Part shown: piece after piece, positions 11,496-58,555 of the stretch
Position numbering within the stretch: the first letter of the stretch is position 1
How the letters are laid out: every line of letters starts with the position of its first letter
NCBI RefSeq assembly: GCF_018623055.1
Contig: NZ_CP076019.1
Coordinates: 1,426,001-1,490,000, forward strand
Length of the DNA: 64,000 nt
Origin: Halorubrum sp. 2020YC2
Lineage (GTDB): Archaea; Halobacteriota; Halobacteria; Halobacteriales; Haloferacaceae
Direction of reading: 5' to 3'
Notes under the pieces: model-generated
What the model was told of the DNA's origin: nothing
Seen by the model: only the letters and a program-made list of their open reading frames with translations
Databases searched by the model: none
Program-made: the position numbers and the translations under genes

Positions 11496-11541
11496 TATTA
11501 TACAATTTAGACCATGCGACGCTGCCCCGGGTTATTTTTGC

Positions 11542-11558
11542 CTCTCGGAGATTCTCCG
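11542..11558. promoter_or_regulatory. Inverted repeat upstream of small membrane gene
   Basis: CTCGGAG-ATT-CTCCGAG is a perfect 7-base inverted repeat, 7 bases before the ATG at 11565. An AT-rich TTATTTTT box lies just before it. It could be an operator or a translation-blocking hairpin. Confidence 0.45.
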
Positions 11559-11564
11559 AGACAG

Positions 11565-11777
11565 ATGTCTGAGGATTCCGACGACACTAGGGGAGGACGG
11601 GTCGTTTTCGCAATACTAGTTGGAGTGACGTTCGGTGCGGCACTCGGAACGACAGTTCTCCAAGATATCACACAGGGAATTGTTGCTGGTGTCATCGTTG
11701 GAACCCTCGCTGCTCTCGTCTTCCCAGCGTGGACAGACCGTCTCTTCGAAACGGTAACAGACAAACTCGAAGCATAA
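11565..11777 (+). CDS. Small two-helix membrane protein
   Basis: The 70-residue protein starts MSEDSDDTRGG; the preceding palindrome and AT box favour this start over upstream in-frame codons. Two hydrophobic helices (about residues 14-29 and 36-53) are joined by a short turn, and the tail is charged (TDRLFETVTDKLEA). The fold suggests a small inner-membrane protein of unknown role. It is the first complete gene inside the accessory region. Confidence 0.6.
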   Translation: MSEDSDDTRGGRVVFAILVGVTFGAALGTTVLQDITQGIVAGVIVGTLAALVFPAWTDRLFETVTDKLEA

Positions 11778-11947
11778 TCTACGGTACCGATCGATGAGTG
11801 AGTACCCTGTGTTGAGTGATTCGTGAGTCCGCTACAATCAAAAGAGATGGAGTAGATCGTCTTTCAGTAGGCTATTGTGCCTTCAGAGAAAGCTTCCTGT
11901 TTCAGAAGAGGCAGTTCGGATTCAGGTCCTCGACTGTGGCGACTTGA

Positions 11948-12250
11948 TCAGGCGCTGTGGTCGATGTACTCACTTTCCCATTCAGCTCGCGCCTGAATCT
12001 CTCTAGCCCCCCGTCGTGTGGTAGTGTACTCGTTGGTCCGTCTATCGCGTTGACTTTTCTCGACAAGTCCCTTCTCAACCAGCGTGTCGAGATTTGGATA
12101 GAGACGACCATGGTGGATCTCCTTTTCGTAGTAGTTCTCAAGTTCGTCCTTGATTGCGAGCCCGTGCGGATCATCAAGGCCGGCGATTACGTACAGTAAG
12201 TCGCGCTGAAAGCCAGTGAGATCATACATATTACCAGCTTTCGTATTCAT
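11948..12250 (-). CDS. PadR-family transcriptional regulator
   Basis: The 100-residue protein is a single winged helix. LTGFQRDLLYVIAGL, GLAIKDELENYY, HHGRLYPNLDTLVEKGLVEKS and RRTNEYTTTRRG are diagnostic of PadR proteins, which bind DNA as dimers and usually repress efflux or stress genes. A second ATG at 12229 (MYDLTGFQRD) matches the start of many relatives and may be the true start. It is divergent from nothing obvious; the next gene upstream on the same strand is the kinase pseudogene. Confidence 0.85.
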   Translation of the reverse strand: MNTKAGNMYDLTGFQRDLLYVIAGLDDPHGLAIKDELENYYEKEIHHGRLYPNLDTLVEKGLVEKSQRDRRTNEYTTTRRGAREIQARAEWESEYIDHSA

Positions 12251-12351
12251 GATTTGAAATACTACTGATCTCCGAAACGAGATTCTGATATTAGGTCTGT
12301 CGAACTGTTCACTCCGGAAAACTATCTCGTGGAATTCAGCTGGTTCAGAAC

Positions 12352-14614
12352 CTAAGTGCGGCTGTACGAAACAGAACTAGCTCGAATCTGTTGATCGGAA
12401 TTCAAATCGCGCACCGCCTTCCGAACTGTCCGTGAGGGTGATATCCCAGTTGTGAGCTTGGGCGATACGTGAGACAATCGTGAGTCCGACCCCGCTTCCG
12501 CTGTACCGGTTGTGTAGCCATGATCAAACACGGAATCACGTTCTTCAGGTGGAATTCCCTCACCGGTATCTTCGACATAGAAGCCGTGTTCGAGTGGACC
12601 GACGCGAACGGTGACGGCTTCACCACCGTGTCCGACCGCATTCCGGAACAAATTCTCGAAGAGTGCCATGAACTGACTGGGGTCGCCGGTCACTGTACAC
12701 GGTTCCGTCGACAGCGTTGCTGACCGCGTCTCGGTCAACTCCCACGCATCGCGGGCTATCTCATGTACCGACACCGGCTCGTGTGTTTCCGCAGGAGTGT
12801 CATGACGTGCGAGTGTAGTAAGGTCGGTTACAAGGTCTTGGATTCGAGTGAGAGACGTTTCGACCGTCTCAAGGTGTGATTTATCCTCGGTCTCTCGGTA
12901 TAACTCGAGGTTTCCGGTCGCAACAGACAACGGGTTTCGGAGATCGTGTGAGACCATACTGGCGAACTGTTCGAGTCGCTCGTTTGCGCTTCTAATTCAG
13001 ATTCTCGCTCACGTAACGTCTGTTCGGTGGTGACCTGAGAGAGCGCAGTGGTAATGTGACTGGCCAGTATCTCTCCGACAGTCACATCTTGGGTATCGAA
13101 ATTTGAGGGGGTCGGTGATCCGGCCATCAAATCCCGTACTCACCCAGTGGGAGATGTAACTCGCTGCGGATCGGTGATTCTGGGTTATAGATATCTGAAT
13201 CACTCTGTACATCATCAAACCGCTGTCGCAGTTCCGTCTTCGAAGACCCGCCAGGCGATGCTCTCCCCTTGCTGAATGTCGGCGGCTCGCCGATGAGCTC
13301 TAGAACACCATCAGTGTACGCAACCGGAGCCAATGTTTCGCTTTCCGCATCGTACAGATAATTGCGTTTGCTTGGAGGTCTAAAATCTCGCGTGCGGCAA
13401 TAACGCCACGTTCAGCGACTTCTTCGACCGTCTCTGCTGCCAATAGCCGCGGAATGGCCCGATTGAGCCCTTCGAGTTGTTGTTCTCGTTTTTGCGTTCA
13501 GTAATCTCCGTGGACACGCCGAACACACCCTCGGCTTCGCCAGCAGTATCCAACACCGGGACTTTCAATGAGAGATACGTCCGGTCGTTACCATCCACCG
13601 TAATCTGCTCTTCAACTTCAAGTGGTTCGCCTGTCTCAAGCACACGGAGATCGTTCGCTTGGACAGTCTCTGCTACTTCGGGTGGGTGGATGTCCTCATC
13701 ATACTGACCGACGAGGTCCTCCGTATCGACGTCGAACAAGCGCTCATATTCAGCATTCACAAACACGTACCGCCCCTCTGTATCTTTCAGATACATCACC
13801 GCGGTCGTATTTTTGAGGATGAGGTTGAGACGACGGTCTGCTCTTGTAGATCCGAGAGTACGTGTCGCCGATCAAGGTACGCTGTGACGAGCTGTAGAAT
13901 GGTGGTAAGCAATTCCTTTTCTTCCGGGAGAAACACATCGCTGTCCGCCTCAGTCAAAGCGTTAGTCGTGTAACCAATTGTCAGCGTAACTTCGTTGCCG
14001 GCGGTGGTCACATCGTGGACTGTGAACTGTTCGACCGGTGGTTCGTACTCCGGAGAGGTGAACTCAGTTTCATCGATGGTGAGCGACGCTACGGCTTCCT
14101 CAGGAAACTGTAGCGACTGTGGAAGATGTGTGACAACTTGTTGGAGCTGTCCTTCTGACTGACCGTCACTGTCGACAAGGACATCGCTGATTGTTTGAAT
14201 CGCAGTGAGTTCCTTCACGCGTTCTCGCAGGTCACGTTTCGTTTGGTACTCAGCAACTGCGTGGCGGATGCGTGTGGCGAGTCGATCGTACTGTTCTGGG
14301 CCTCGTTTCTGTAGATAATCAGTCACACCGGCAGAGATGGCTTCGCTGGCGATTTCTTCTGAGCCCTTCCCAGTAAAGAGAATAAACGGTAGGTCCGAGT
14401 GGGTTTCACGAACCGTGTGGAGGAACTCAAGCCCATTCTGCTCCGGCATTTCATAATCACTCACCACACACACAATCGGCTCGGTTTCGATGATTTCGCG
14501 CGCGTCGGCGACACGAGTCGCAGTATGAATTGTCGCTGTAGGGAGGTTCCGTTGTAAATACGTGGCTGTGAGATCTAAGAAATCTGCCTCGTCATCGACG
14601 CAGAGAAGATGCAT
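12352..14614 (-). pseudogene. Receiver-PAS-GAF-histidine kinase, multiply frameshifted
   Basis: Starting at ATG 14614, segments in changing frames give: a receiver domain (LLCVDDEADFLDLTATYL, VVSDYEMPEQNG, FILFTGKGSEE), a linker/GAF-like segment, a PAS domain (TAVMYLKDTEGRYVFVNAEY), a second GAF-like region, a HisKA box (SHDLRNPLSVATGNLELY) and the HATPase N and G1 boxes (LFENLFRNAVGHGG, DTGEGIPPEER). The last part (SGSGVGLTIVSRIAQAHNWD) is again out of frame. At least four frame changes occur, near 13800, 13490, 13130-12990 and 12510. A real kinase of about 740 residues has decayed. Confidence 0.85.
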
Positions 14615-14875
14615 GGGCGAGTGTCTGTTACCTTGCTAAATATTCTTTCTGTGAGTGACTTGGGACAGAAGTCGTGGGTTTCCGCAGTACATCTTTGTGA
14701 ACTAAACACAAACAGTAACTGATATTGTTGAATACTAATATTGGCAGACCATCTGACGGAGGGTCGTAGAATCTCATCGATTCGAACAAAACAAAAACAA
14801 GGGATCACTCCAAACTGAGCGCCCCCAACGTTCCGACGTGTACCGCTCGTTTCGGACTCAGTTTCCACCGTCGGT

Positions 14876-15175
14876 ATGGGAATCAAGCGCTTCACACATA
14901 ACATAAAAAATCAAATAACTCTGCGCCAACCCCATACCACCTTCAGCCGCTTCCGAAACCGGTCACAAGACTACCTATCCCCGGGACATTATAGCGGGGA
15001 ATATTCGGATAATTCTGGTTCAGATGAGGATGGAGGTATATTCTTAGCAGATTTAATCACATCTCATGCGATTTTGGGGTGCGTCTCAGCTATCAACCGC
15101 ACCAAATTCGGCCGTAATTTGGAAAAATGTGCTAAGCGCTACTTAGAGAGTCTAAAAAAGCCTATCGACCAATAA
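14876..15175 (+). CDS. Hypothetical protein, doubtful
   Basis: A 99-residue open frame in AT-rich DNA. The middle is acidic and Gly/Ser-rich; the C-terminal half (LADLITSHAILGCVSAINRTKFGRNLEKCAKRY) is predicted helical. I recognise no family, and composition departs from nearby haloarchaeal genes. It is the only plausible gene between 14620 and 15290; the rest of that stretch shows nothing I can name. Confidence 0.3.
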   Translation: MGIKRFTHNIKNQITLRQPHTTFSRFRNRSQDYLSPGHYSGEYSDNSGSDEDGGIFLADLITSHAILGCVSAINRTKFGRNLEKCAKRYLESLKKPIDQ

Positions 15176-15296
15176 TCAATAGAACTGCCTGAAAGAGCAG
15201 TAAATCAGCTAAGACTGATTCTAAGTTGGTTTAATACTGCCCGCAATCTCATCTAAAACAATATATTATTTGAGGTATTCGTTCAAATCGCACCAA

Positions 15297-17540
15297 CTAT
15301 GAGGCTGATGTCCATGCTTTTGCTGGGCGGATTCGGAAGCTTTCTCCGTAAGTTGCGGTACGTGAGAAGAAAATCGAAAGCATCACCAAGAGCACCGCTT
15401 TCAGCAAGTTGAGTCCGAACTTCAGACGGTCGATATCCGTCCTTCTTTCGCCTACTGACATCAATGTCAAACTGTTCGACGCAGAAAGTCGTGATAGAAT
15501 CGCCGGGAGGTGTTTCCCGTTCGGTGTGACGAAGTACCGATCAATGCGATCGGGAAACGCGGCGAGTTTCTCGACTGTTCCCTGGGCCCCATCTGAATCA
15601 CCGGATTCCGTTTCGACTTCGGCAACGACGACTGGTTCGCCCTGAGAAAATCCCACGACGTCTAGACGTTTCTTCGATAGATGTGATACGTTGTCCCAAC
15701 AGGTAGTCGGCTGTAGCCGCCAGACATCACAGTATCGAACAACGCGGTCAACATCAGACCGAGAAGCAACAAAGAGCGCAACGAGGTCAATCCCGACTCT
15801 ATGTAGCGTATTTTCTGAAGGCGATCGTTCGCCCCAGCCGTCGTTGCTGACGTTCGGAATTCCGAGCTGCTTACGGACTTTCCACGGCACCGAGTAATAT
15901 GTTTGAGGAGTATTCGGCTGAGAGAGCAAGCCGAGGCTTTTGAGCCGATCCACATCAACATCAAGTTTCGACCCGTCAGGTGGTCTCGGAATGACGCCAT
16001 GCTCTGCGTTAGTGAATACAAACCGATCCGTCGCTCCATTGCTAACCCGATACGTGTGAGAAAGAGTGCCTCGGCAGCCGATATGTCCTCAATCTCGAAT
16101 GAATCGGTGAGTGGTTGAACATCTTTCACCTCCCTAAATTCGGAGCCCATTTCGCACGCAGCGGCTCGATGTGCGTCTTGGATGGCACTAGCATATTCTT
16201 CGGATTGGAACGGTCGATCCAAATCGGAAAGGCCCACTCGAATTGCGTCTGACGAGGGAAGGCCAACGTCCATCTCTCTCAATATAACGAGTTCGTGTCT
16301 GTATCGCTCCCAAGGAAGTGTCTTTATTCGCGGATAAAATGGAGTAAATTTCGGGGCAGGTACTTCATACGCGTCTCCCGAGTTAGAAGCCGTGAAACCA
16401 TCGTCAATCGCAGCGTCTAATGCGTTTTCGAGTGTTTGTTTATTTTCGATGTTGTTACCAGGTCGATCAGGCGAAGGAAAGAACTGACAGATCTCATCAA
16501 ACAGGGTTGTGAGATATTGATTCGTTGAAATTGAGTGTTGAACTCGCACGAATGGTGTCGGCAACTGTGACGAGGCGCTTGTCTGGCCGAGGAAACGGAT
16601 CCTTGGTATCCGGATCAACTAATGGATTGTCCGAATCCGAGCCGTAATGGGTGCCATAAGCTTGCGTTTTTCTGTATTTCAACTCGCGTCGAATCCATGA
16701 TCGGACTTGGGGTGTGATATCGACATATTGCTGAATGTCGTTTTTAGAAAAGATTGTATAAGCAAGGTTGGCTAGTCGGTGCCACCCGTAATACGCATAA
16801 TTAGCAAGACGCATTAAGACCACATCGTCAGGAACGAAGAGATAGTCACGCTGTCTGGTGAGGTGGGAGGTCGTCAAAATTAGACTTTGGGAAGAATAGT
16901 GGATGATCAAGTGGTCCAATGAAACTCCTCGCACTCACGTGGCTCAACGGGATTTTGTAACCATCATCACATTGAATCACGCGATCCTCGTACTGGGATT
17001 GTTGTGATCCCACAGATATATGATTCGATTGGTATGTTCGGGCAGCGAGGACTGGGCTCGACGAGGCCTGTTCTGAATCCGGTACCAGCAGTATCGCTAC
17101 GATCTCACGTTGTAATGGGCCCGGAATCAGATTTTGAAACGCATACAGTACATCATACACGTATTGTTCTCGAACGTGTTCCACCGTGAAAGACAGCCCA
17201 GGAGAATTCCGGAATGGTCGTGTCATCATCCTGCGTTCAGAACTATGCTCAGGATACTGCTCATACTCATGTGTCCCGCGGAGTGGATCCGCAAATTCGA
17301 CACGAAGAGCGGTTATCGCGGCGAACGTGGCGATTTCGTGAAATGAGTCGATATTGGGTGTGTCTTAATTCCATTCTTTGCTTTCAACGCCTCCACACCA
17401 TACTCATCGAGGCGCTTTCCAAATCCCTCGCCAGTATCATCAAATAACGCGAAGAGTTGCCGCAGCTGCCTTCGCGTACAGTCTAACGGGAGGAGAGTTG
17501 CGCGTTGTACGTCGAGGTGCCGGTCTGGTATCTCAAGCAT
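15297..17540 (-). pseudogene. Large hypothetical with nuclease-like motif (second gene of pair)
   Basis: From ATG 17540 the protein reads through at least four frame changes (near 17350, 16860, 16540 and 15960), adding up to roughly 740 residues. Segments include MLEIPDRHLDVQRATLLPL, DYLFVPDDVVLMRLANYAYYG, FTPFYPRIKTLPWERYRHEL and VDRVVRYCDVWRLQP. Near the C-terminus, LDVVGFSQGEPVVVAEVETE (about 15600-15665) resembles a PD-(D/E)XK nuclease core: Asp, a loop, then E-x-E on a strand. The same pattern occurs in the upstream partner. The start overlaps the partner's stop by 8 bases, so they formed an operon. Family not recognised. Confidence 0.6.
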
Positions 17541-18846
17541 AGGTTGGGACTGAGACTAGGTCGTTTAGCGTATCGACTCCTTCATCGAGGAATCTCCGTC
17601 GAGGGAGAAGTGCCATCCCATCGAGGAGGGGAATCTGTCGAATGAGTTGTTCGTGTAATTTCTGTACGTTCGGAAGCGACCGGTATTTCTCTCTCGACTC
17701 TGGGAAGACCCCAGGGCAATCCGTCAGTTTGCTACACTTCAGGAAGTGGAGAAAGTCATAGATTGACTCTCGGTTCGGCAGAACGAGGAGACCTGTGGCT
17801 GCGGTTTTCCCGATCTGAGCGGCCTGTAGATACGTCTCGAATGGCGACTCTTCCCACTCTGTGACGACTCCTAGGTATCGGAGTCGCTGACCATCGGTAG
17901 TGTATTCGAATCCTGCGACATCAAATCCGAGTACGGGGAGACTCGACGAGGTCTCTTTAGAGGAATCGTAGTCCGAGCGCGAGTAGATGAGGTGTGGCGA
18001 GATCGCCCAGTCAACGTTCGGCAAGCGGAGTAATTGCGTCTTCATCCGACAGGCCACGAGGTTATGATCTCTATGGGCGTCTAGTATGGCCCTTCCATCG
18101 AATGGCTTGAAATCAGAGTACGGGTGAGATGCGTTCTCCGGATACGTATCGACCAATTCGACATCCCATATCTGCCTGAACTCTGCCGTCGTACTGTAGA
18201 CTTTCGAGCGGTCGACACGCCGCTTGACTATCCACTTCGAGTCTAGAGTGTCCGGTTGTACGCCGTAATGATTTGCACAGACCTCACGCAGGTCCTTTGT
18301 GAAACCGCGACGAAGTCCACCGTATCCCGGGATTAACCCGTACTGATCGAGAAACACTACGTGGGCAAACACCCTCGCTGGTGTGACCTCCTTTCTTTTT
18401 TTTGATTCGTTGTTCGCTGGCTTTGATCCCTGCGAGGGGACCGAGAACCAATTCGTCATGTTTCAGCAGTAGGTCTTGGCGGAACGCTTCCGCCAGCCAC
18501 TCTTTAGGTCGAATGTCGTATGGTGTATTGGAAAGATATTCGTCGAAGCCTGTCGATTCAGTCTCAATTAACGATCTGAGTGCCGAATACAGGGGCTCGA
18601 ATGAGAGGCCATCGTTGCCGATGACGTGAGGTGTGATATGTGTCTCAGGAGATCGATGTCTCGGGAGCAGCCATCTCTGCGCAGTAAGTCGCGCTCAAAT
18701 GAGACCGCTTCTGGGGAATGACAAGGAGTTTCGTTCTCACCATACTTGCGGCCACAGACAGAACAAGTTCGCTCTACAAAATCAGTTAGTTGCGGCTGCT
18801 CGTTCTGGTTTCCTCCGTTCTCTTCTCTTTCCGTATTGCTCCACAT
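17533..18846 (-). pseudogene. Hypothetical with zinc motif and nuclease-like core (first gene of pair)
   Basis: The N-terminus from 18846 carries a CSVCGRKYGENETPC zinc-type motif, followed by SPETHITPHVIGNDGLS, which looks HNH-like but is uncertain. Two frame changes are needed, one near 18650 and one at a run of eight T (plus strand, near 18400). The intact 3' part (about 300 residues) contains GFDVAGFEYTTDGQRLRYLG then VVTEWE, an Asp...ExE layout like that of the downstream partner. About 430 residues in total. Together the two genes look like a broken two-component nuclease system. Confidence 0.6.
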
Positions 18847-18934
18847 ACTGACTCTAAATTTGTGATCGAATTTAAAGGTCTGCCCCGAGATATTGCTACG
18901 CTTCTGTTACTGTGTCGTCTATCTAATCGCAAAA

Positions 18935-19288
18935 TTATAAAAATAGATTGAGAGGTCTGTAGGTCCTTAGTGAATCATTGGAAATGGGGTCACGCTCCCC
19001 GAGCCAGCAGTCCTTGCTGTTACTCTCCGGCTTCGTCCCAGTCCGCAGGTTCTCCCGATACTCTCCCCATGCTTGGTACATCTCTGTCCGTTCCGCTTCC
19101 GTCATCGTCTCGTGTTCGGCTTCGTCGTAGAACGGGAGTTCCTCCTTCTCGGGGACCGCCATCACCTGCTTGAGCGGGTAGATTTTCTTGTAGTAGTTCT
19201 CCAACACCCAGTCTTCGCCGTGCTCGTCGACAGCTTCTTCGATGAACGGGGCGGCCTCCGGATACTCCGCGGCGAGTGTGTCAGTCAT
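18935..19288 (-). CDS. Acidic hypothetical protein
   Basis: The 117-residue protein (MTDTLAAEYPEAAPFIEEAV...) is rich in Glu and Tyr and mostly helical, with no cysteine cluster or membrane segment. The C-terminal 25 residues are unlike the rest and may be read-through past an ancestral stop. Its ATG overlaps the stop of the gene at 19285-19620 by 4 bases, so the two form a translationally coupled pair. This pairing is common on haloarchaeal plasmids. Function unknown. Confidence 0.6.
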   Translation of the reverse strand: MTDTLAAEYPEAAPFIEEAVDEHGEDWVLENYYKKIYPLKQVMAVPEKEELPFYDEAEHETMTEAERTEMYQAWGEYRENLRTGTKPESNSKDCWLGERDPISNDSLRTYRPLNLFL

Positions 19289-19620
19289 GGTTGTTGTGTT
19301 GTGGGTGGATTGGATCGCTCCGATACGCGGACAAATCGACGTTCAGGCGTCGGTGAACTCGGCCAGTGAGTGGTTCGAACTGCTACTGTTCCACTTCCGA
19401 TTTGGATGAACTCGAACGTCTCAAGCGAGGCGTCGATCGTCTCGGCGAGCCGCGTCTGAATCGCAGAGGGCAGGCTCTCGATGGGAATCGCCGTGAGCGC
19501 GTGCTGGGTAAGGTGGTAACTCGATGCGAGGTTCGTCGGGGCGACAAGAATCACGCTTGCCCCGTCGACAGCGTCGAGCGCGAGTTGGGCATCCCGATAC
19601 TGGTGGACAGTCACATTCAA
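19285..19620 (-). CDS. Hypothetical protein, first gene of coupled pair
   Basis: The 111-residue protein (MNVTVHQYRDAQLALDAVDG...) shows an alpha/beta pattern with IPIESLPSAIQTRLAETID helices and an FEFIQIGSGTVAVRT strand pair near the end. It resembles small plasmid-borne haloarchaeal proteins in style, but I cannot assign a family. It is the upstream partner of 18935-19288. The 190 bases beyond its start (19621-19809) contain no gene I can support. Confidence 0.55.
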   Translation of the reverse strand: MNVTVHQYRDAQLALDAVDGASVILVAPTNLASSYHLTQHALTAIPIESLPSAIQTRLAETIDASLETFEFIQIGSGTVAVRTTHWPSSPTPERRFVRVSERSNPPTTQQP

Positions 19621-19809
19621 TCATCCACGGGAAAGAGGTAGTCAGCAGCCCCAAATTCGATACTCGCCCCTGCTGACTCAAAATGCCCTTTGAGCATAAC
19701 TATTTACAATATATGTTCTATAGACATTACGTTGTGGTGAATGAGATGGTGATCTGTCCCACTACGGGCCATGCTCCCAATTTGAATAGCCCGCCCGATA
19801 CATCGGACC

Positions 19810-20610
19810 ATGTGTCCCGAGACCTCTACGACTGTACAGCGGCTGAACTCGCAACAGGCTCTGTCGAACACCTCATACGACACACCACCAAGTACTGCTG
19901 CTGAGTGGCTCGAAACAAACGGGTACGACGCCGCGCCGATCCAAAAGCAGGGCGACGCGGTCGGGTTCATCCACGAAGACGACGTCACTGCTGACGATGA
20001 CGGCGATACACTCGAGGAGCATCTCACCCCGCTCACAATTGACTATATGATGAGCGGAGACACCGCGTTTGAGGACGTCCTGGCTGCGCTCATTAAAGAG
20101 CCGGTTTACTTCCTCGGCGGCCAGCCGCATTACTGGGATCCTCACCCGTGCCGATCTCAACACGGCCCCAGTACGCATCTACCTATTCGACCGCATCACC
20201 TACCTCGAAGAGCACCTCCGCGAACTCATTCTCGAGCACGCACCCAATTGGAAACAGACGCCAGTCACTGTTGATGAACTCGACGACATCGAGGACCGAT
20301 ACACAGACGCACAAACTGCTAACGTTGAGTTAGACGAGATCCACTACGCACAGTTCTACGCTAACACTATCATCTCGAACGTCGAAGCTGTTGGCAAACC
20401 TGCGGTTTCTCAACGACAGCGCAAGCCGACTCTCGACTCACGAGATCAACGAGCTTCGTAACGATGTCGCTCACGCCAATCTTCTCGTTGAAAATACCGA
20501 TAGCGAGGGGTTCCTCAATAGCGGTCGTACGACGGAGAACCTGTCCGCCCTCTCGAAAGTATCACCAAGTCCTCACCAACCTCAGGAGCCGGGAACGCTC
20601 CGGGGACAGC
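19810..20610 (+). pseudogene. CBS-domain protein with HEPN-like C-terminus, frameshifted
   Basis: Three frames join to give one protein. The first part resembles a CBS pair (WLETNGYDAAPIQKQGDAVG, DYMMSGDTAFEDVLAAL). After a shift near 20130 comes ITGILTRADLNTAPVRIYLF, the typical end of a CBS domain, then a helical region. After another shift near 20400 comes INELRNDVAHANLLVE, where R-N-x3-H is the HEPN ribonuclease signature. A third shift near 20555 is likely. CBS domains sense nucleotides and HEPN domains often cleave RNA, so the intact form may have been a nucleotide-gated RNase; that is inference. Confidence 0.62.
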
Positions 20611-20699
20611 GGAGGATCGGTTCGAGCACTCAGAGCAGACGGATCAACTGAAGCGGTAGCGCGGAGTCCCGATCCTCAAGGAGCGACCGAAGGGAGCGA

Positions 20700-50901: not shown

Positions 50902-52095
50902 GTGCCTAGAACACGTATCCTCCACATCAGTGACACCCATCTAGGGAAGCGACAGTATGGATCGGATATTCGGCGTGAGGACTTTGCAAAAGCCTTCGAG
51001 CAGGCGATCGAGGTCGCGGTCGATCGGAACGTTGATGCCGTGATTCATACGGGCGACTTGTTCGACGATCCGGTTCCGTCGCTCCCGACGGTGATGCGGG
51101 CCGCTGATGCGTTAAAGCCGCTTGAAGAACACGGGATTCCGTTTTACGGGATCGTGGGGAACCACGAACGGAAAAACGACGAGCAGTGGCTTGATCTCCT
51201 CCGGCGGACGAGCGCTGCTGCTCGCCTCGGCAAAGAGCCGACGATGGTCGGTGAGGTTGCGCTGTACGGGATCGACGCCGTGCGGCCGAGCGTGTGGGAC
51301 AATATCGACTTAGAACTCGAAGAACCGCCTGCAGAGGCGGCGTGGACGGTTCTGTGTATGCACGAACTCCTCACGCCGCTTGTTCACGGAATGGGGCGTG
51401 TCTACCCAGCCTCCGAGGTTATTGACCGGGCTGGGATCGATCTTGATGGGCTCGCGCTAGGGGACCTCCACCAGCCAGCGAGTTCGGTCGTGGACGGAAC
51501 TGATGTCTGGTACGCGAGTGCGACAGAACGCGGCGGGAAAGATCAGGAAGAGACAGGCGTTGTACAGCTGCTCGATATCGATAACAGCGGGATTCACCGT
51601 CGACAGATTGAGTTGGAGACGCGGCCGTTCGCGGTGTTCGAGATCGCTTTCGGTGAGGATGACGGAGCGACCCACGCCCGCGACGTGCTTGAGAGACACG
51701 ACCTCGAGGGGGCTGTGGCGAAGATCGAGTTGAGCGGTGAGCGGGCCGCGGTCACTGCAAACGAGGTAACGCAGATGGCACGCGAAGCCGGTGCTGCTGT
51801 CGTGAGCGTCGACGACAATCGTGGGCGCGTCGATCTTGACGTCGAGTCAATCGAGGCCATGTCGCTACAGGGACTCGACGGGGCCATCGAAGAGAAACTC
51901 GCCGATGAGGACTTTTCGACGGTTGCGCTCGACGTCGATCAGCAGGTTCGAAAAGCGGACGAACTCGACACGAACGTGAATCGTGTCGCGGACACTTTCG
52001 CTGAGTCGCTCCGTGATGCCCAGCGCGAAGCGTTTGACGATGCCGGACCGGAAGAGACGCCGGAGGGCGTCGAATCGATGGAGGTTGACGAATGA
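50902..52095 (+). CDS. mre11: Mre11 DNA double-strand break repair nuclease
   Basis: The 397-residue protein is intact and starts at GTG 50902. All five phosphoesterase motifs are canonical: DTHLG (11-15), HTGDLFD (49-55), GNHER (86-90), CMHE (152-155) and GDLH (187-190). The capping domain and a Rad50-binding helical C-terminus follow. Mre11 trims broken DNA ends with Mn2+ and pairs with Rad50. The stop overlaps the Rad50 start by 4 bases. This is an island copy, presumably in addition to a chromosomal one. Confidence 0.95.
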   Translation: MPRTRILHISDTHLGKRQYGSDIRREDFAKAFEQAIEVAVDRNVDAVIHTGDLFDDPVPSLPTVMRAADALKPLEEHGIPFYGIVGNHERKNDEQWLDLLRRTSAAARLGKEPTMVGEVALYGIDAVRPSVWDNIDLELEEPPAEAAWTVLCMHELLTPLVHGMGRVYPASEVIDRAGIDLDGLALGDLHQPASSVVDGTDVWYASATERGGKDQEETGVVQLLDIDNSGIHRRQIELETRPFAVFEIAFGEDDGATHARDVLERHDLEGAVAKIELSGERAAVTANEVTQMAREAGAAVVSVDDNRGRVDLDVESIEAMSLQGLDGAIEEKLADEDFSTVALDVDQQVRKADELDTNVNRVADTFAESLRDAQREAFDDAGPEETPEGVESMEVDE

Positions 52096-55000
52096 AAGTC
52101 ACTGATCTACACCTACAGAACATCCGGAGCTACGAGGACGAGTCGATCGCGTTCCCCGAGGGAACGATGCTCGTCCATGGGGAGAACGGTGCCGGGAAGA
52201 CGACACTGCTGATGGGGATTTTCGGCGGACTCTTCCTCTCGAATATCCGGAATGTCGGGTCGAACGATTTCAATCTCGACGATATCGTCAGGCGAGGTAC
52301 GAGAGAAGGCGAAATCGTGTTGACATTTGAGGTGGCAGAGACACCGTACACCGTCACGTGGTCGATCGATACGGAGGGGCAAAACAGCGCAGAGCTTGAC
52401 TCGCCCGCACTCTCGGAACCCATCTCAGGGATTCGTGATGTCAGCTCGGAAGTCGTCGATGTGGTCGGGATGGACGAAGACAGTTTCTCCCGGTCAGTGT
52501 ACGTACAGCAGGGTGAAGTCGATAGCCTGTTTGACGACGACGCTCGGGCGGAACTCATCGATGACTTGCTCGGACTCGATCGGATCGATCGCTACGAACT
52601 CCGGGCAAAGGGTGCCCGTCGTGCGATGGGTCGCATTGCGAGTGAGAACGAACAATCTGCTGAGAATCATCGTGAGACCATCGACGAGCAGTTCGATCAT
52701 GACATCGAGGGCTACGAGGCTGCCATCGCCGACAAAGAAGCGGAGATCTCGGAGCAACAGGCAGAGATCGAGGACGTAGAGGAGTTCCTACAGGAGCTTC
52801 GAGACGCGAAAGAGGACGTCGAGCAACGACTTGAGAATCACGACGAGTTGCAGACCGAGCTTGAAGAAGCCGAAGATGAGCGCCAGGACCTCATCGAAGA
52901 GCGAGCGGCGAAACAACGGGAAATTGAGGAGGCCGAGACAGCAATTGCGGAGGCTGAAGCGGAGATCGATACGTGCCGCGACGGTATCGACGAGAAGCAG
53001 GAGGCACTCGACCAACTCGATGACCCATCGACAACAGACCCGATAGATGCCGATCTGTCGACGGAAGAGCGTGCTGAGGAGGCGCTGAGTGCCGCACAAA
53101 ACGCGGTCGAGACAGCACAGATCGAACACACAGATCGAGAGGGAACGCTCGGCCAGGCGGAGGCAGAGCGAGACCGACTCATCGACGAACGAGATGCGTT
53201 ACGCGAGGAAGCCGAAGAGCTCGAAGCGGATCTTGACCACCTGCTCGCGGAGAAAGGGGACATCGTGGATGACGTTGAGGCTGCGGAGGAAGAGGTTACA
53301 GCTGCCGTCGAGAAGCGAGAGGCTGTAACCACTGAGTTCCTCCCAGACGACTCCTGTCCGGACACAATCACTGACGAGACGCGTGAGGCCGTCGACACAC
53401 GCATTGAGGCGTTGACGACAGAGAAAAATGAATTGTCGGAAGAGCGTGCCGCTGCTGAGGCGTCTCTCGACGCAGCCGAAACGACACGCGAGGAAGCGCA
53501 GGCGGCTGTCACGGACGCACATGACGAGATAGACCAGTTGTCGGACGACCTCGCAGAGGTGGAGTCGGAACTCGAAGATGCCCATGAGGCGAAATCGGAG
53601 GCAGAAAATCAATTCGAGGAAGATCTTGAGACTCTCGATGCCGACCTCGACACCGTTGACTTGAGCGTATCTGGCGACACGCTACAGAGCCTCATCGACG
53701 AACGGATCCCGGAAGCGAAAGGGGAAGTACAGGACGCAATCGAGACGGCGAACACGACGGTCACCGAACTCGAAGCGCGCAAAACGACGCTTGAGGAGGA
53801 CCGCGAGGAGCTACAGGCACTCGATGGAGTAGCGACGTGCCCGAAGTGTGGCCAAGACGTCGATCCGTCTCACGTCGAAGACGAGCTCGCGGATATCGAC
53901 GCCGAACTCACTGAGGTAGAAGCCGAACTGGCCGAGGCGAGAGAAGAACGCGATGCGCTCGTCGACCGGCGAGACGCTCTCGACGATTGTCGTGAAGATG
54001 CGATTGAACTGCGGGGCTTCCGTGACGACACGGTCAACCTAAAAGCTGAGCGCGTGAGTACGCTCGAAGACGAGCGTGAGTCGTTACAGGACGATCATGC
54101 CGAGGCAGAGTCCGAGCTCACCGACGCTGAGGCCAAGCTCAAATCTGCGGAGTCGGAGGTCGACGACCTCGAACACACGATCGCTGACCTCGAATCGGAT
54201 ATTGAGTCGCTCGAAGCGGAGATTGAGGACGGCAAAGAGGTTGTGGCGGCCTTCGAAACCGTTGAGAAACGTCGGCAGGAACGGGATGACCTTGCGGATG
54301 AGCTTGCTGATCTCGAAGCTGAACAAGAAGAACTCGAAGCGGAAATCGCTGACGCGAACGCAGAGCTCGACGAATACGACGAGCAGATTGAAGCCCAACG
54401 CGACGCAGTTGCTGAGGCCGACGCAGCCCTCGAAGACGCTCAGCAAGCAGTTGACACCGCAACGGAACAGCGCGAACTCGTTGCCGACGTGGTTGACGCA
54501 TACGAAGCGATCGCCGAGTTGGAGACCACGATCAAAGGCCACCAGAAGGATATCGGGCACGCACAGGACACGATCGAGACCCTCAACGGGCAGATTGCTG
54601 ACGTTGAGGAGGAAATCGATGCGCTCAGCGATGAACTCGGATCGATCGACGTCGAAGCCCAGCGAGAACAGTTGGAAACGGCGACACAGAAGATCGAGGA
54701 GCGCGAGGCCACGCTTGAGGAACTGACCGCGGAACTAGACTCGCTCAAGGAAGCGCGGACAGTGCTTGTAAACGACCTTGAGAATCTAGAGTACTTCCGC
54801 GACCAGCTCGCACTCGAGGAAGAAAAGCGCAAGTGGGCCGAAGAGCGGTCTGACGAGTTCGATCGAATGATGGCGGTGTATCGAAGTACGAAGGCGGACC
54901 TCCGTGAGCAGTACCTCGCCTACATCAACCAATACACGAACGACATCTTCAGCGACATCTACAAGAACAGTAGCTACCAGCAGGTGCGCATTCTTGAGGA

Positions 55001-55400
55001 GGGGCCCGATGGCACGCCATACGCGATTCAGTTGCTTCGTGACGACGGGACGCTCGAACACCCGAGTAACGCCAGCGGCGGGGAACGTGCCATCGTCAAT
55101 CTCGCGCTCCGAGCCGGCATCTACAAACTCATCGCCGAGATGCGCGAGGGCGACAGCGGTCGCCTCCCGCCGTTCATCCTCGATGAGCCGACGACGTTCC
55201 TCGATAAGGGCCACATCGGGCGTCTCGAACAGATGCTTGACAGCATCTCCGAGTGGGACGTCCCGCAAGTGATCGTTGTCTCCCATGACGAGCGACTTAT
55301 TCAGGGGGCTGAACACGAGATCGAAGTCTCGATCGACGAAGACACGAACGCCAGTAGAGTTGACGTACATCGAGGTGGACGCATCCTAGGTGACGAGTAA
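52092..55400 (+). CDS. rad50: Rad50 SMC-like ATPase
   Basis: The 1102-residue protein is intact. Walker A is HGENGAGKT (29-37), the Q-loop is YVQQGE near 137, the zinc hook CPKCGQDV is near residue 583, the signature SGGERAIVNLALR near 995 and Walker B FILDEPTTFLD near 1028. Between them run about 850 residues of Glu/Asp/Ala-rich coiled coil. Rad50 uses ATP to clamp DNA ends for Mre11. The order mre11-rad50 with overlap matches the archaeal operon. Confidence 0.96.
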   Translation: MKVTDLHLQNIRSYEDESIAFPEGTMLVHGENGAGKTTLLMGIFGGLFLSNIRNVGSNDFNLDDIVRRGTREGEIVLTFEVAETPYTVTWSIDTEGQNSAELDSPALSEPISGIRDVSSEVVDVVGMDEDSFSRSVYVQQGEVDSLFDDDARAELIDDLLGLDRIDRYELRAKGARRAMGRIASENEQSAENHRETIDEQFDHDIEGYEAAIADKEAEISEQQAEIEDVEEFLQELRDAKEDVEQRLENHDELQTELEEAEDERQDLIEERAAKQREIEEAETAIAEAEAEIDTCRDGIDEKQEALDQLDDPSTTDPIDADLSTEERAEEALSAAQNAVETAQIEHTDREGTLGQAEAERDRLIDERDALREEAEELEADLDHLLAEKGDIVDDVEAAEEEVTAAVEKREAVTTEFLPDDSCPDTITDETREAVDTRIEALTTEKNELSEERAAAEASLDAAETTREEAQAAVTDAHDEIDQLSDDLAEVESELEDAHEAKSEAENQFEEDLETLDADLDTVDLSVSGDTLQSLIDERIPEAKGEVQDAIETANTTVTELEARKTTLEEDREELQALDGVATCPKCGQDVDPSHVEDELADIDAELTEVEAELAEAREERDALVDRRDALDDCREDAIELRGFRDDTVNLKAERVSTLEDERESLQDDHAEAESELTDAEAKLKSAESEVDDLEHTIADLESDIESLEAEIEDGKEVVAAFETVEKRRQERDDLADELADLEAEQEELEAEIADANAELDEYDEQIEAQRDAVAEADAALEDAQQAVDTATEQRELVADVVDAYEAIAELETTIKGHQKDIGHAQDTIETLNGQIADVEEEIDALSDELGSIDVEAQREQLETATQKIEEREATLEELTAELDSLKEARTVLVNDLENLEYFRDQLALEEEKRKWAEERSDEFDRMMAVYRSTKADLREQYLAYINQYTNDIFSDIYKNSSYQQVRILEEGPDGTPYAIQLLRDDGTLEHPSNASGGERAIVNLALRAGIYKLIAEMREGDSGRLPPFILDEPTTFLDKGHIGRLEQMLDSISEWDVPQVIVVSHDERLIQGAEHEIEVSIDEDTNASRVDVHRGGRILGDE

Positions 55401-56681
55401 ATGGACGAACGCGCTTTCGACGTGGTGCGACAGCTCGCCGAACGAGTCGACGCTGGCATCCCACGCGAGGTGGACGATCAGGCCGCACACGCCCGCGACC
55501 TGTTCAGCCTCCTCACCCATGACGGGGGAACGGTCGAACCGATCGGCGAGCCGGAATATTTCAAAACGCGCAAGGCGGAACTCGGGACGTGGACTGATGA
55601 CCCGTGGACCGAGCCGACGTACGGTGTCGATGCCAGTACGACCCGGCCGTTGGAATACAACAACGGACTCGTCGTCGACACAGCACACGCAAAACTCGGG
55701 GTGAGCGGCGCTGACAGCGATCGAAGTGCCGAGCGCCGAGGGACTGTGGTTACTGGGGTATACCTCGAAGACGACGATGTGACACTCCACCACGAACAGA
55801 CCGAACGTGGGAGTGTCGAAGGCGAAATCATTCGCATCCCCGAGATGCGCCAACGGGCGAACGTCACCTCGATTCTGACGTCCACCGTACAGCGGCTCGC
55901 AGAGGGGAAACACGCGCGTCGGTGTCTCGACGTGGTCGACGGGCCACTGTTCCTCGACGGCTCTGTGTACCCGCTCAGCGTCATCTATTGGACGCTACTC
56001 GACCGTGCCGGGCGAGGCGCACCGATCGGCAACTGGGATCTTCCCACTGACGTCATCGAGAACTACGTCGCAGTCGTCGATGCGTGTTTTGAACGCGACA
56101 TCCCCGTGTTGGGCGTCGTGAAGACCTCCTCTATGGGTGAGCTCACAGACTCACTCAGAACAAAGATCACACAACACGATCTCCGAGGCCCACACGGGAC
56201 GCTACATGACGTTCCGTGGCTCCGCGACCACCAGTTCATCGGGGAAGTGCTCCGCGATGACAGCCTTGACCACCTCACGTACACCTCCTGGTTCGTCCAA
56301 ACAGACGTCGAACTCCGGGGCAACTCGTTCGACCTGCTGACAGCCGTGTCTGATGAACTCAGCCACGGTCAACCAGACGCGTACCGGCGTGCGTTCGCGT
56401 ATGTTCGCACACCAAAAACGGGGAACGTGTTCCGAATCGAGACGCCCGTACTGTTCCTCACTGATGAGGAGCGTCGAGAACAGATCCTCCTGAAAGCGCT
56501 CAAAGAAATTGCCCGTCAAAGCGACGTGCCGCGAGCCGTCGCGCGCGCCGACCGCATCGCACGCATCAGTCCCGACAACCGCGAAACGATCCGCGACGCG
56601 CTCCAAACGGTCGAGTCCGCGTTCGACTATAACCGCGACGGCCGTTGGAGCCACCTCGAAGATTCCCGAAGCTATGAGTGA
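55401..56681 (+). CDS. nurA: NurA 5'-3' nuclease
   Basis: The 426-residue protein has the NurA RNase H-like core: TYGVDASTTRP (first Asp, residue 77), LFLDGSVYPLSVIYW (second Asp near 193), then a GVVKTSS strand and a conserved C-terminal part with AYVRTPKTGNVFRIETP and VARADRIARIS. NurA works with HerA in end resection: the nuclease sits on the HerA ring. It starts immediately after the Rad50 stop and overlaps HerA by 8 bases. Confidence 0.93.
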   Translation: MDERAFDVVRQLAERVDAGIPREVDDQAAHARDLFSLLTHDGGTVEPIGEPEYFKTRKAELGTWTDDPWTEPTYGVDASTTRPLEYNNGLVVDTAHAKLGVSGADSDRSAERRGTVVTGVYLEDDDVTLHHEQTERGSVEGEIIRIPEMRQRANVTSILTSTVQRLAEGKHARRCLDVVDGPLFLDGSVYPLSVIYWTLLDRAGRGAPIGNWDLPTDVIENYVAVVDACFERDIPVLGVVKTSSMGELTDSLRTKITQHDLRGPHGTLHDVPWLRDHQFIGEVLRDDSLDHLTYTSWFVQTDVELRGNSFDLLTAVSDELSHGQPDAYRRAFAYVRTPKTGNVFRIETPVLFLTDEERREQILLKALKEIARQSDVPRAVARADRIARISPDNRETIRDALQTVESAFDYNRDGRWSHLEDSRSYE

Positions 56682-58555
56682 CAACGTCGACGACATTCTC
56701 GACAACGACCCGGTCGCAGACGACTCCGAAGAGTCCGAACAGACACCAACCGACGAACCAGGTGCGACAGACGCTGAGTCTGACAGTACTGAAATGCCGG
56801 AGCGAACGGTCCCGAGTGGCGTGTCCACACCCGCTGATGACGAACTTGGCCACGTCCTCGCAAGTGAGGAGATCCACGTCAGCAGACGGGACTATCAGGT
56901 GAACGCGTTCATTCGAACGGGTGCGAGAGAGGGGATCCGCCTGGGCGATTACGTACAGATTCCGTACCCGGACGATAGTAGCGAGTTGTTCGCAGTAACC
57001 GATTCGCTGCGCTACGAGCCGTACACCGATCTCGACGACAAATCCGACGCTCACAATCAGATCAGCGCGCACGTTGAACTCGACGAGTCAGAGTACGTCC
57101 AAGTCGCAGAGTTGGAGCCGCTAGCGATTCTCAAGAACGTAGGGTCGGATGATATTGAGAGCGGCATTGTCAATCGGATTCCGAAGCCAAACTCCCCAGC
57201 ACGGCTTGCTCGGGACGAAGACTGCCTCCGAACTGGGCTGAACATTCCGGGCAAGGGAATCTTCACCGGGTGGCTCTCTGTCGGCGGCGAGCCGATGACC
57301 GTGAACAACGAGAACTTCCCATACTACCTCAGCAACCCCGGAATCGATCGGGACCGGAGACGTTGAAGACGGTGAGCCCGCCGTGTTCAGACACGCTCTC
57401 GTTGCGGGCTCGACCGGGAAGGGGAAGACCCACTTCACGAAGAACGTCTTACGACAGTTCGTCTCTGAGAAGCGCTATCCGATTCGTCACCACGATACAG
57501 GTGAAGAGGAACAGCGACGGCTCAATCTCGTTATCATCGACCCCGAAAACGAGTACTGGGAGATGCGTGAGGACAACGACGCTGTCGTGAACAATGACGC
57601 GGTCCAACACGAGCTCCGCCGACACAACATCAAGCACGGTGGCGTCGACGACCTGAATGTTTTCGTCCCGCAGGTTGCTGGCACGAATGCCCCCTCGACG
57701 ATGGAGAGCCGTGAACTCTCTATCCCCTTCGAGATCGTTCGTGGCCGGCCTGAAATGCTGATGCCGTACAAGCCGACAGAAGTAACACGTGGCGCAATCG
57801 AAGACTGTATCAACGCGTACTTTTCGTGCTTCGATTCACAGGGTGGCTACCCGGATCGCTCCGTGAACCGTCCGAAGTACGTTGATTTCCTCGAGTTCCT
57901 TGACGAGCACGATCACGACGAGAGCCGGCTACGCGAGGAGAACAATATTGCCGGAGGAACGTGGAGTGCAGTGAATCGGCGTGTTGACCGTGACACATTC
58001 CGGCAGGTGTTCGATCAGGGAACTGCGTTCCTCCCGGACATCTCCGATAGGGTGTTCCGCGAAGGGCAGGTGACGGTGATCCCAACGAGTCACCTCAACG
58101 GCGGGAAAGAGAGTCTCACCGTACTGTCGATCCTCTCGTACATCATCGAGAACAAGATCGATGATTATCAGGTCGACCCGGCGGTTCGTGACACGCCGAT
58201 GCTCGTCGCGGTTGACGAGGCGCACAATTACTTAGCGAGTGCGAGCAGCCTCCGCGAAGAATACATTCTCCGACGGGCGCGCGTCGCTGTCAAGCAGGGC
58301 CGGAAGTACAAGCTTGGACTGTGTCTCATCACACAGAATCCGGATGACATTGACGACGACGTGATCAAGCAAATCAATACGAACATCTTCCTCGGCCTGA
58401 AGGCGGAGGTCGTCGATGACGTGCCCTCGATCCCTTCCGAGTTCAAGAAAGATCTTCCGAACTTCGGCAAAGGACAAGCCGTCGTGAAAGCACCGGATGT
58501 AGAGGCCGTTGAAGTGAAAGGCCTCCCATACTGCGTAACCAGACACGGTAACTGA
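56674..58555 (+). pseudogene. herA: HerA bipolar DNA helicase, single frameshift
   Basis: ATG 56674 overlaps nurA. After an acidic N-terminus comes a HAS-barrel-like region (EEIHVSRRDYQVNAFIRTG, LGDYVQIPYPDD). Near 57351 the frame breaks in GGAATCGATCGGGACCGG, where one extra base interrupts what would read NPGID-GTGD. In the next frame comes the ATPase: GSTGKGKTH (Walker A), LVIIDPENEYW, VAVDEAHNYL (Walker B) and LCLITQNPDDIDDDV. The length of about 627 residues fits HerA. Either a recent mutation or an assembly error; the rest is intact. Confidence 0.9.

Follow-up and report, generated by a model that had tools for sequence, protein, structure and literature searches.

An overlapping haloarchaeal gene pair related to the nuclease-like tails of conjugation-type ATPases and to a primase-associated protein family

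A gene pair of Halorubrum sp. 2020YC2, here termed A-B, was analysed within a stretch of 64,000 nucleotides (the window). By profile comparison, gene B consists of an N-terminal domain resembling a primase-associated protein (PAP) and a C-terminal winged-helix/restriction-nuclease-like module, and gene A carries a second, homologous module. With intermediate confidence, A-B is read as encoding a translationally coupled DNA-processing complex derived from haloarchaeal conjugation-type elements, namely from their replication/transfer block. The features of the pair are located in the window as follows.

17533..18846, minus strand: gene A, 438 aa when intact, with two frameshifts in the window copy
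18718..18765, minus strand: zinc-binding motif of A, CSVCGRKYGENETPCH, of the C2-CH type (C-x2-C-x10-C-H)
17536..18372, minus strand: C-terminal module of A, with winged helix, HN, FDVAGF strand and LLVLPNRES strand
15283..17540, minus strand: gene B, 754 aa when intact, with five frameshifts in the window copy
16150..17540 (end approximate), minus strand: N-terminal part of B, distant relative of NF038197 (hhalign)
15283..16090, minus strand: C-terminal module of B, winged helix plus restriction-nuclease-like domain, homologue of the ATPase tail
15552..15818, minus strand: putative catalytic residues of B, namely E in SENTLHR, D in RLDVVGF, ExE in AEVETE and K in VEKLAAF

The start codon of B falls within the 3' end of A, with an overlap of 8 bases, and in the window both genes are broken, each being spread over several frames; a first-pass annotation of the same DNA had described the overlap and the breakage, and B ends slightly beyond the range given there (15297-18846), at 15283. 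The two strings quoted in that annotation were found at 17925-17851 in A (FDVAGFEYTTDGQRLRYLGVVTEWE) and at 15668-15606 in B (RLDVVGFSQGEPVVVAEVETE), and the strands LLVLPNRES and YFVTPNGK at 17790-17737 and 15536-15486, respectively. The zinc motif ascribed to the first gene is present at 18765-18718 and is conserved in all five of the A alignment rows that cover it. In its intact form, A comprises the zinc motif, a helical region, a winged helix (marked by VFAHVVFLDQYG ... SKVYSTTAEF) and a restriction-nuclease-like module without catalytic acids. Intact homologous pairs, for which a search had been suggested, do exist: in Halorubrum cibi the genes encode proteins of 438 and 754 aa and likewise overlap by 8 bases, and Halomicroarcula rubra has both genes unbroken, with approximately 60% identity. 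The host genome has a size of 3.06 Mb, and the window is placed in a part of it with a G+C content of about 50%, beside a part of 73% G+C.

A search with intact B matched about 90 genomes, mostly with the last ~250 residues of B only, and most of these matches sit at the end of proteins of ~1300 aa, which in the clusters read bear a P-loop HerA/VirD4-like ATPase domain. In profile comparisons the tail of B matched the ATPase tails at 99.8% (E 6.5e-30, 230 columns) and stand-alone proteins of ~292 aa at 98.2% (E 3.6e-14), with all hhalign E-values being those of single comparisons of shallow alignments, to be taken as guides and not as database E-values; three unrelated profile pairs, compared as a control, scored 0.2-0.5%. 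A model made from the ATPase tails only retrieves the B proteins of H. cibi (1e-16) and of the window (3e-8) as well as the A-like protein of genome G010 (4e-12). The C-terminal half of A is collinear with the ATPase-tail module (69%, E 4.4e-5), and the module of A matched that of B at 65% (E 6e-5). On the same kind of evidence, the A-like gene of G010, located directly upstream of B in that genome, is a bridge joining A to the ATPase-tail module: its product matched the other A proteins at 93.2% (E 3e-7) and the ATPase tails at 97.8% (E 1.1e-12), and with the G010 orthologue added the comparison of A with the ATPase tail reached 97.1% (E 5.8e-11) and that of A with B 95.3%. Judged by these profile scores, the likeness of the A and B cores exceeds chance. 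The homologous restriction-like domains that had been suggested for both genes are thus retained as homologous winged-helix/nuclease-like modules, with a fold that is still deduced from motifs, whereas the nearest relatives of the module, the tails of conjugation-type ATPases, had been omitted from that reading. A was also considered as a PriS-like primase, a candidate that was rejected as no similarity was found.

Regarding the surroundings of the ATPase genes, the one in genome G006 comes after a VirB4-like gene (1e-36), and in G006 and G002 it is followed by genes for a PriS-like protein and a primase-associated protein. In the locus L050:4357-12809, VirB4-like, VirD4/HerA-like (1274 aa), PriS-like and primase-associated genes are tightly ordered, and the tail of the ATPase encoded there, a winged-helix plus nuclease-like module, lies outside every Pfam model. 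The stand-alone ~292-aa proteins (L055:7195-8070, L057:7950-8828 and L044:1387-2259) are unannotated and consist almost wholly of the module.

The first ~380 residues of B matched the primase-associated protein family NF038197 of NCBIfam (prim_adj_arch) at 98.5% (E 2.4e-15, 318 columns, hhalign). A PAP gene is also present in Haloferax volcanii. The NF038197 model itself matches B of G067 at 7e-5 and B of G114 at 9e-5, both below the cut-off: the B proteins reached by the model score about 22 bits, and the curated threshold is 100 bits. On these scores B is a distant relative of NF038197 that stands outside the membership of the family. Since the tail of B corresponds to the ATPase-tail module and its N-terminus matches PAP, B can be read as a PAP-like domain fused to the ATPase tail module. 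NF038197 was named solely from its gene neighbourhood, and homology to it therefore tells no activity. The earlier view of B as a nuclease applies to its C-terminal nuclease-like module, but not to the roughly 60% of the protein that represents the distant PAP domain.

Within the module, the ATPase tails show an invariant set of residues, namely E (GEKTPH), H, D (FDV), ExE and K (DYDK) in 11 of 11 sequences. In the B proteins E, H, D and K are each conserved in eight of eight sequences, the first E of ExE in five and the second in seven, so that three of the eight are without one ExE acid. The A proteins keep the D (8/8) and the H and no other residue of the catalytic set, nearly all of their ExE positions being occupied by hydrophobic or small residues; the WE of A that had been quoted as an ExE counterpart is displaced in the alignment, which puts the ExE of B on a V and a T of A. 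Because only Asp and His are retained, A is probably a pseudo-nuclease. The proposed nuclease pair is accordingly modified to an apparent pattern of nuclease plus pseudo-nuclease: B mostly keeps the putative catalytic set, A does not.

The arrangement E-D-ExE, followed by a K in the helix that comes next, would represent a variant of the D...(D/E)xK-type catalytic pattern, and a PD-(D/E)XK-type nuclease fold of the module is likely, as predicted from these motifs. The core of this fold has the order alpha-beta-beta-beta-alpha-beta. AlphaFold models of the B module and of A (two-sequence input) had a pLDDT of 36 and were excluded from fold searches; both show the order helix-strand-strand-strand-helix-strand, which at this pLDDT is a hint only. 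Comparison of PDB sequence profiles with the module gave chance matches only and no solved structure, and no PD-(D/E)XK family of Pfam was found in it, intact homologues included. An alternative reading gives A and B a role in mobile elements as structural factors or as regulators that bind DNA, with a nuclease-like fold that is inactive in both proteins. It would account for the loss of the acids and the lysine in A and of one acid in some B proteins, and the winged helix is indeed the part closest to known domains (weak PadR matches); however, B keeps its helix E, its D and its K in eight of eight sequences down to very low identity, a retention for which a purely structural role has no need, and the alternative is considered unlikely.

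Relatives of the pair are rare and spread across the Halobacteriales, nearly always with the two genes adjacent. A single-protein search detected A in 9 of 391 genomes of Halobacteria (a profile search in 9 of 392), and full-length B occurs in about the same genomes. The expectation that the homologues occur as pairs was confirmed in seven genomes, in which full-length B directly adjoins a relative of A (G015, G368, G344, G267, G283, G114 and G010), and in G067, where a transposase is inserted between the two genes (L016:6311-10676). In G113 no recognisable A accompanies B, and G102 has an N-terminal part of A alone (L069:6810-9802), not far from a gene that, read by eye, seems to encode an Mrr-type restriction endonuclease. 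For the B genes of G283 and G067 a dN/dS of 0.27 was obtained, which indicates that B of this pair is under purifying selection. In G010 a third gene (L053:9323-12904, ~1190 aa, with a zinc motif) overlaps after A and B, with no clear relative beside A-B elsewhere among 242 genomes searched. This gene was considered as a degenerate VirD4-like ATPase and rejected, as it showed a local motif likeness without a P-loop (hhalign 0.1%); a tail module proposed in it was not supported by profile comparison.

The genes flanking A-B vary between loci (in G267 tyrosine integrases adjoin B), and no primase, VirB4 or ATPase gene adjoins the pair in H. cibi or in the window. The main competitor of the conjugation-derived reading is a role in defence: A would sense foreign DNA and B degrade it, the pair being kept in genomic islands. 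Rarity, patchy occurrence in islands and the lack of fixed element genes around the pair are in line with such a role, and a nuclease-like module with a zinc/winged-helix partner recalls many defence pairs. Against it stand the nearest homologues, which are conjugation-type ATPase tails and PAP and not defence proteins, the lack of any match of A or B to the PADLOC protein models (two species scanned), and the neighbourhoods: contrary to the defence setting that had been anticipated, the relatives read showed no recognised defence genes immediately around A-B. The probability of a defence role is put low.

The claim that the pair is undescribed is upheld in so far as neither A nor B is covered by a curated family. 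Scans of the A and B fragments against NCBIfam, of the fragments and intact homologues against Pfam and of the intact homologues against PHROGs gave nothing significant; by tblastn, B was not found in plasmid or phage records and A not in plasmid records, and viral contigs scanned with the B and ATPase-tail alignments yielded no matches. No description of the pair or of the module was found in the literature searched, which covered papers outside subscription journals. The parts of A-B are nevertheless recombinations of known kinds.

Regarding the broken frames, the window was compared with the H. cibi contig. From 11.5 to 18.5 kb of the window, the two differ by 17 substitutions in 7.0 kb and by 18 small indels of 1-2 bases, 17 of which are deletions in the window, in genes and spacers alike; from 22 to 34 kb the sequences are far more diverged, with almost no indels. 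Breakage of the kind seen in A and B also affects two neighbours, a response-regulator/histidine-kinase gene and a CBS-like gene. Across positions 11500-20650 the small indels relative to H. cibi are concentrated and nearly all deletions, and this part is probably a low-quality assembly patch; the profile of differences fits consensus error better than slow decay. The degraded state assigned to the pair by the first-pass annotation is doubtful because the frameshifts, with few substitutions and many deletions of 1-2 bases, have the profile of sequence error. That A and B are genuine recent pseudogenes in this genome, a question independent of what the intact pair does, is fairly improbable: in its favour are the broken frames of the sole assembly, the otherwise 98.5% completeness of the genome and the presence of long uninterrupted frames in other parts of the window, but the excess of deletions in genes and spacers, the similarly broken neighbours and the almost indel-free diverged region all point the other way. 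A copy misread by the assembly appears more likely than one recently inactivated. Elsewhere in the window (50902-58555), genes for Mre11-like, Rad50-like, NurA and HerA proteins stand in a row and make up a cluster for DNA end processing; the HerA frame has a late start, just past a 2-base deletion relative to H. cibi, and may be broken likewise.

While homology, the order of the domains, the pairing of the genes and the conservation of residues are established, we infer for the proposed DNA-processing complex the binding and cleavage of DNA, the association of A with B and the biological process. The winged helices and the zinc motif would recognise a DNA site, e.g., the origin or a junction of a mobile element, B would cut or nick this site by metal-dependent chemistry of the PD-(D/E)XK type, and A, itself non-catalytic, would serve to position or regulate B. 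With named residues and a small two-gene system, the nicking or cutting of archaeal mobile-element DNA becomes open to a direct test. An anonymous family of primase-associated proteins gains a first remote relative whose domain architecture differs from its own, and a conserved nuclease-like module, otherwise fused to a coupling-type ATPase, is seen recombined in A-B with a primase-associated domain.

Among known systems, the closest is the haloarchaeal VirD4/HerA-like ATPase, the last ~230 residues of which form the same module with the same E-D-ExE-K pattern. The order that defines this tail, a winged helix followed by a domain with H, D, ExE and K, was found in B; A is homologous to it but lacks ExE and K and has thus, unlike the ATPase tails, lost catalytic residues. 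A and B also differ from the ATPase in that they have no ATPase domain and form a separate two-gene unit. The primase-associated protein NF038197 is alike to the N-terminal part of B, but has no nuclease module and adjoins a PriS-like gene, a neighbour that A-B does not have. HSDR_N of Type I restriction enzymes (PF04313) was the best sub-threshold Pfam match of the B fragment, in the D...ExE region (E 0.31); this match is not significant and was absent with the intact homologues of B.

A further step would take the module as the missing relaxase of haloarchaeal conjugation and A-B as a mobilisation unit, with the PAP-like domain bearing the nickase and A recognising the site. This is very unlikely to hold; the module, which in the main elements is fused to a VirD4-type ATPase beside a primase, is a candidate relaxase and not a demonstrated one. 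PMC6563490 is cited beside this argument for thaumarchaeal elements and Sulfolobus plasmids. The MOBC relaxases (TraX of pAD1 and MobC of CloDF13) are relatives of PD-(D/E)XK enzymes (PMC12857230). They are bacterial, no oriT is known for A-B, and the likeness is one of concept, namely a restriction-nuclease-like domain that works with a VirD4-type coupling ATPase.
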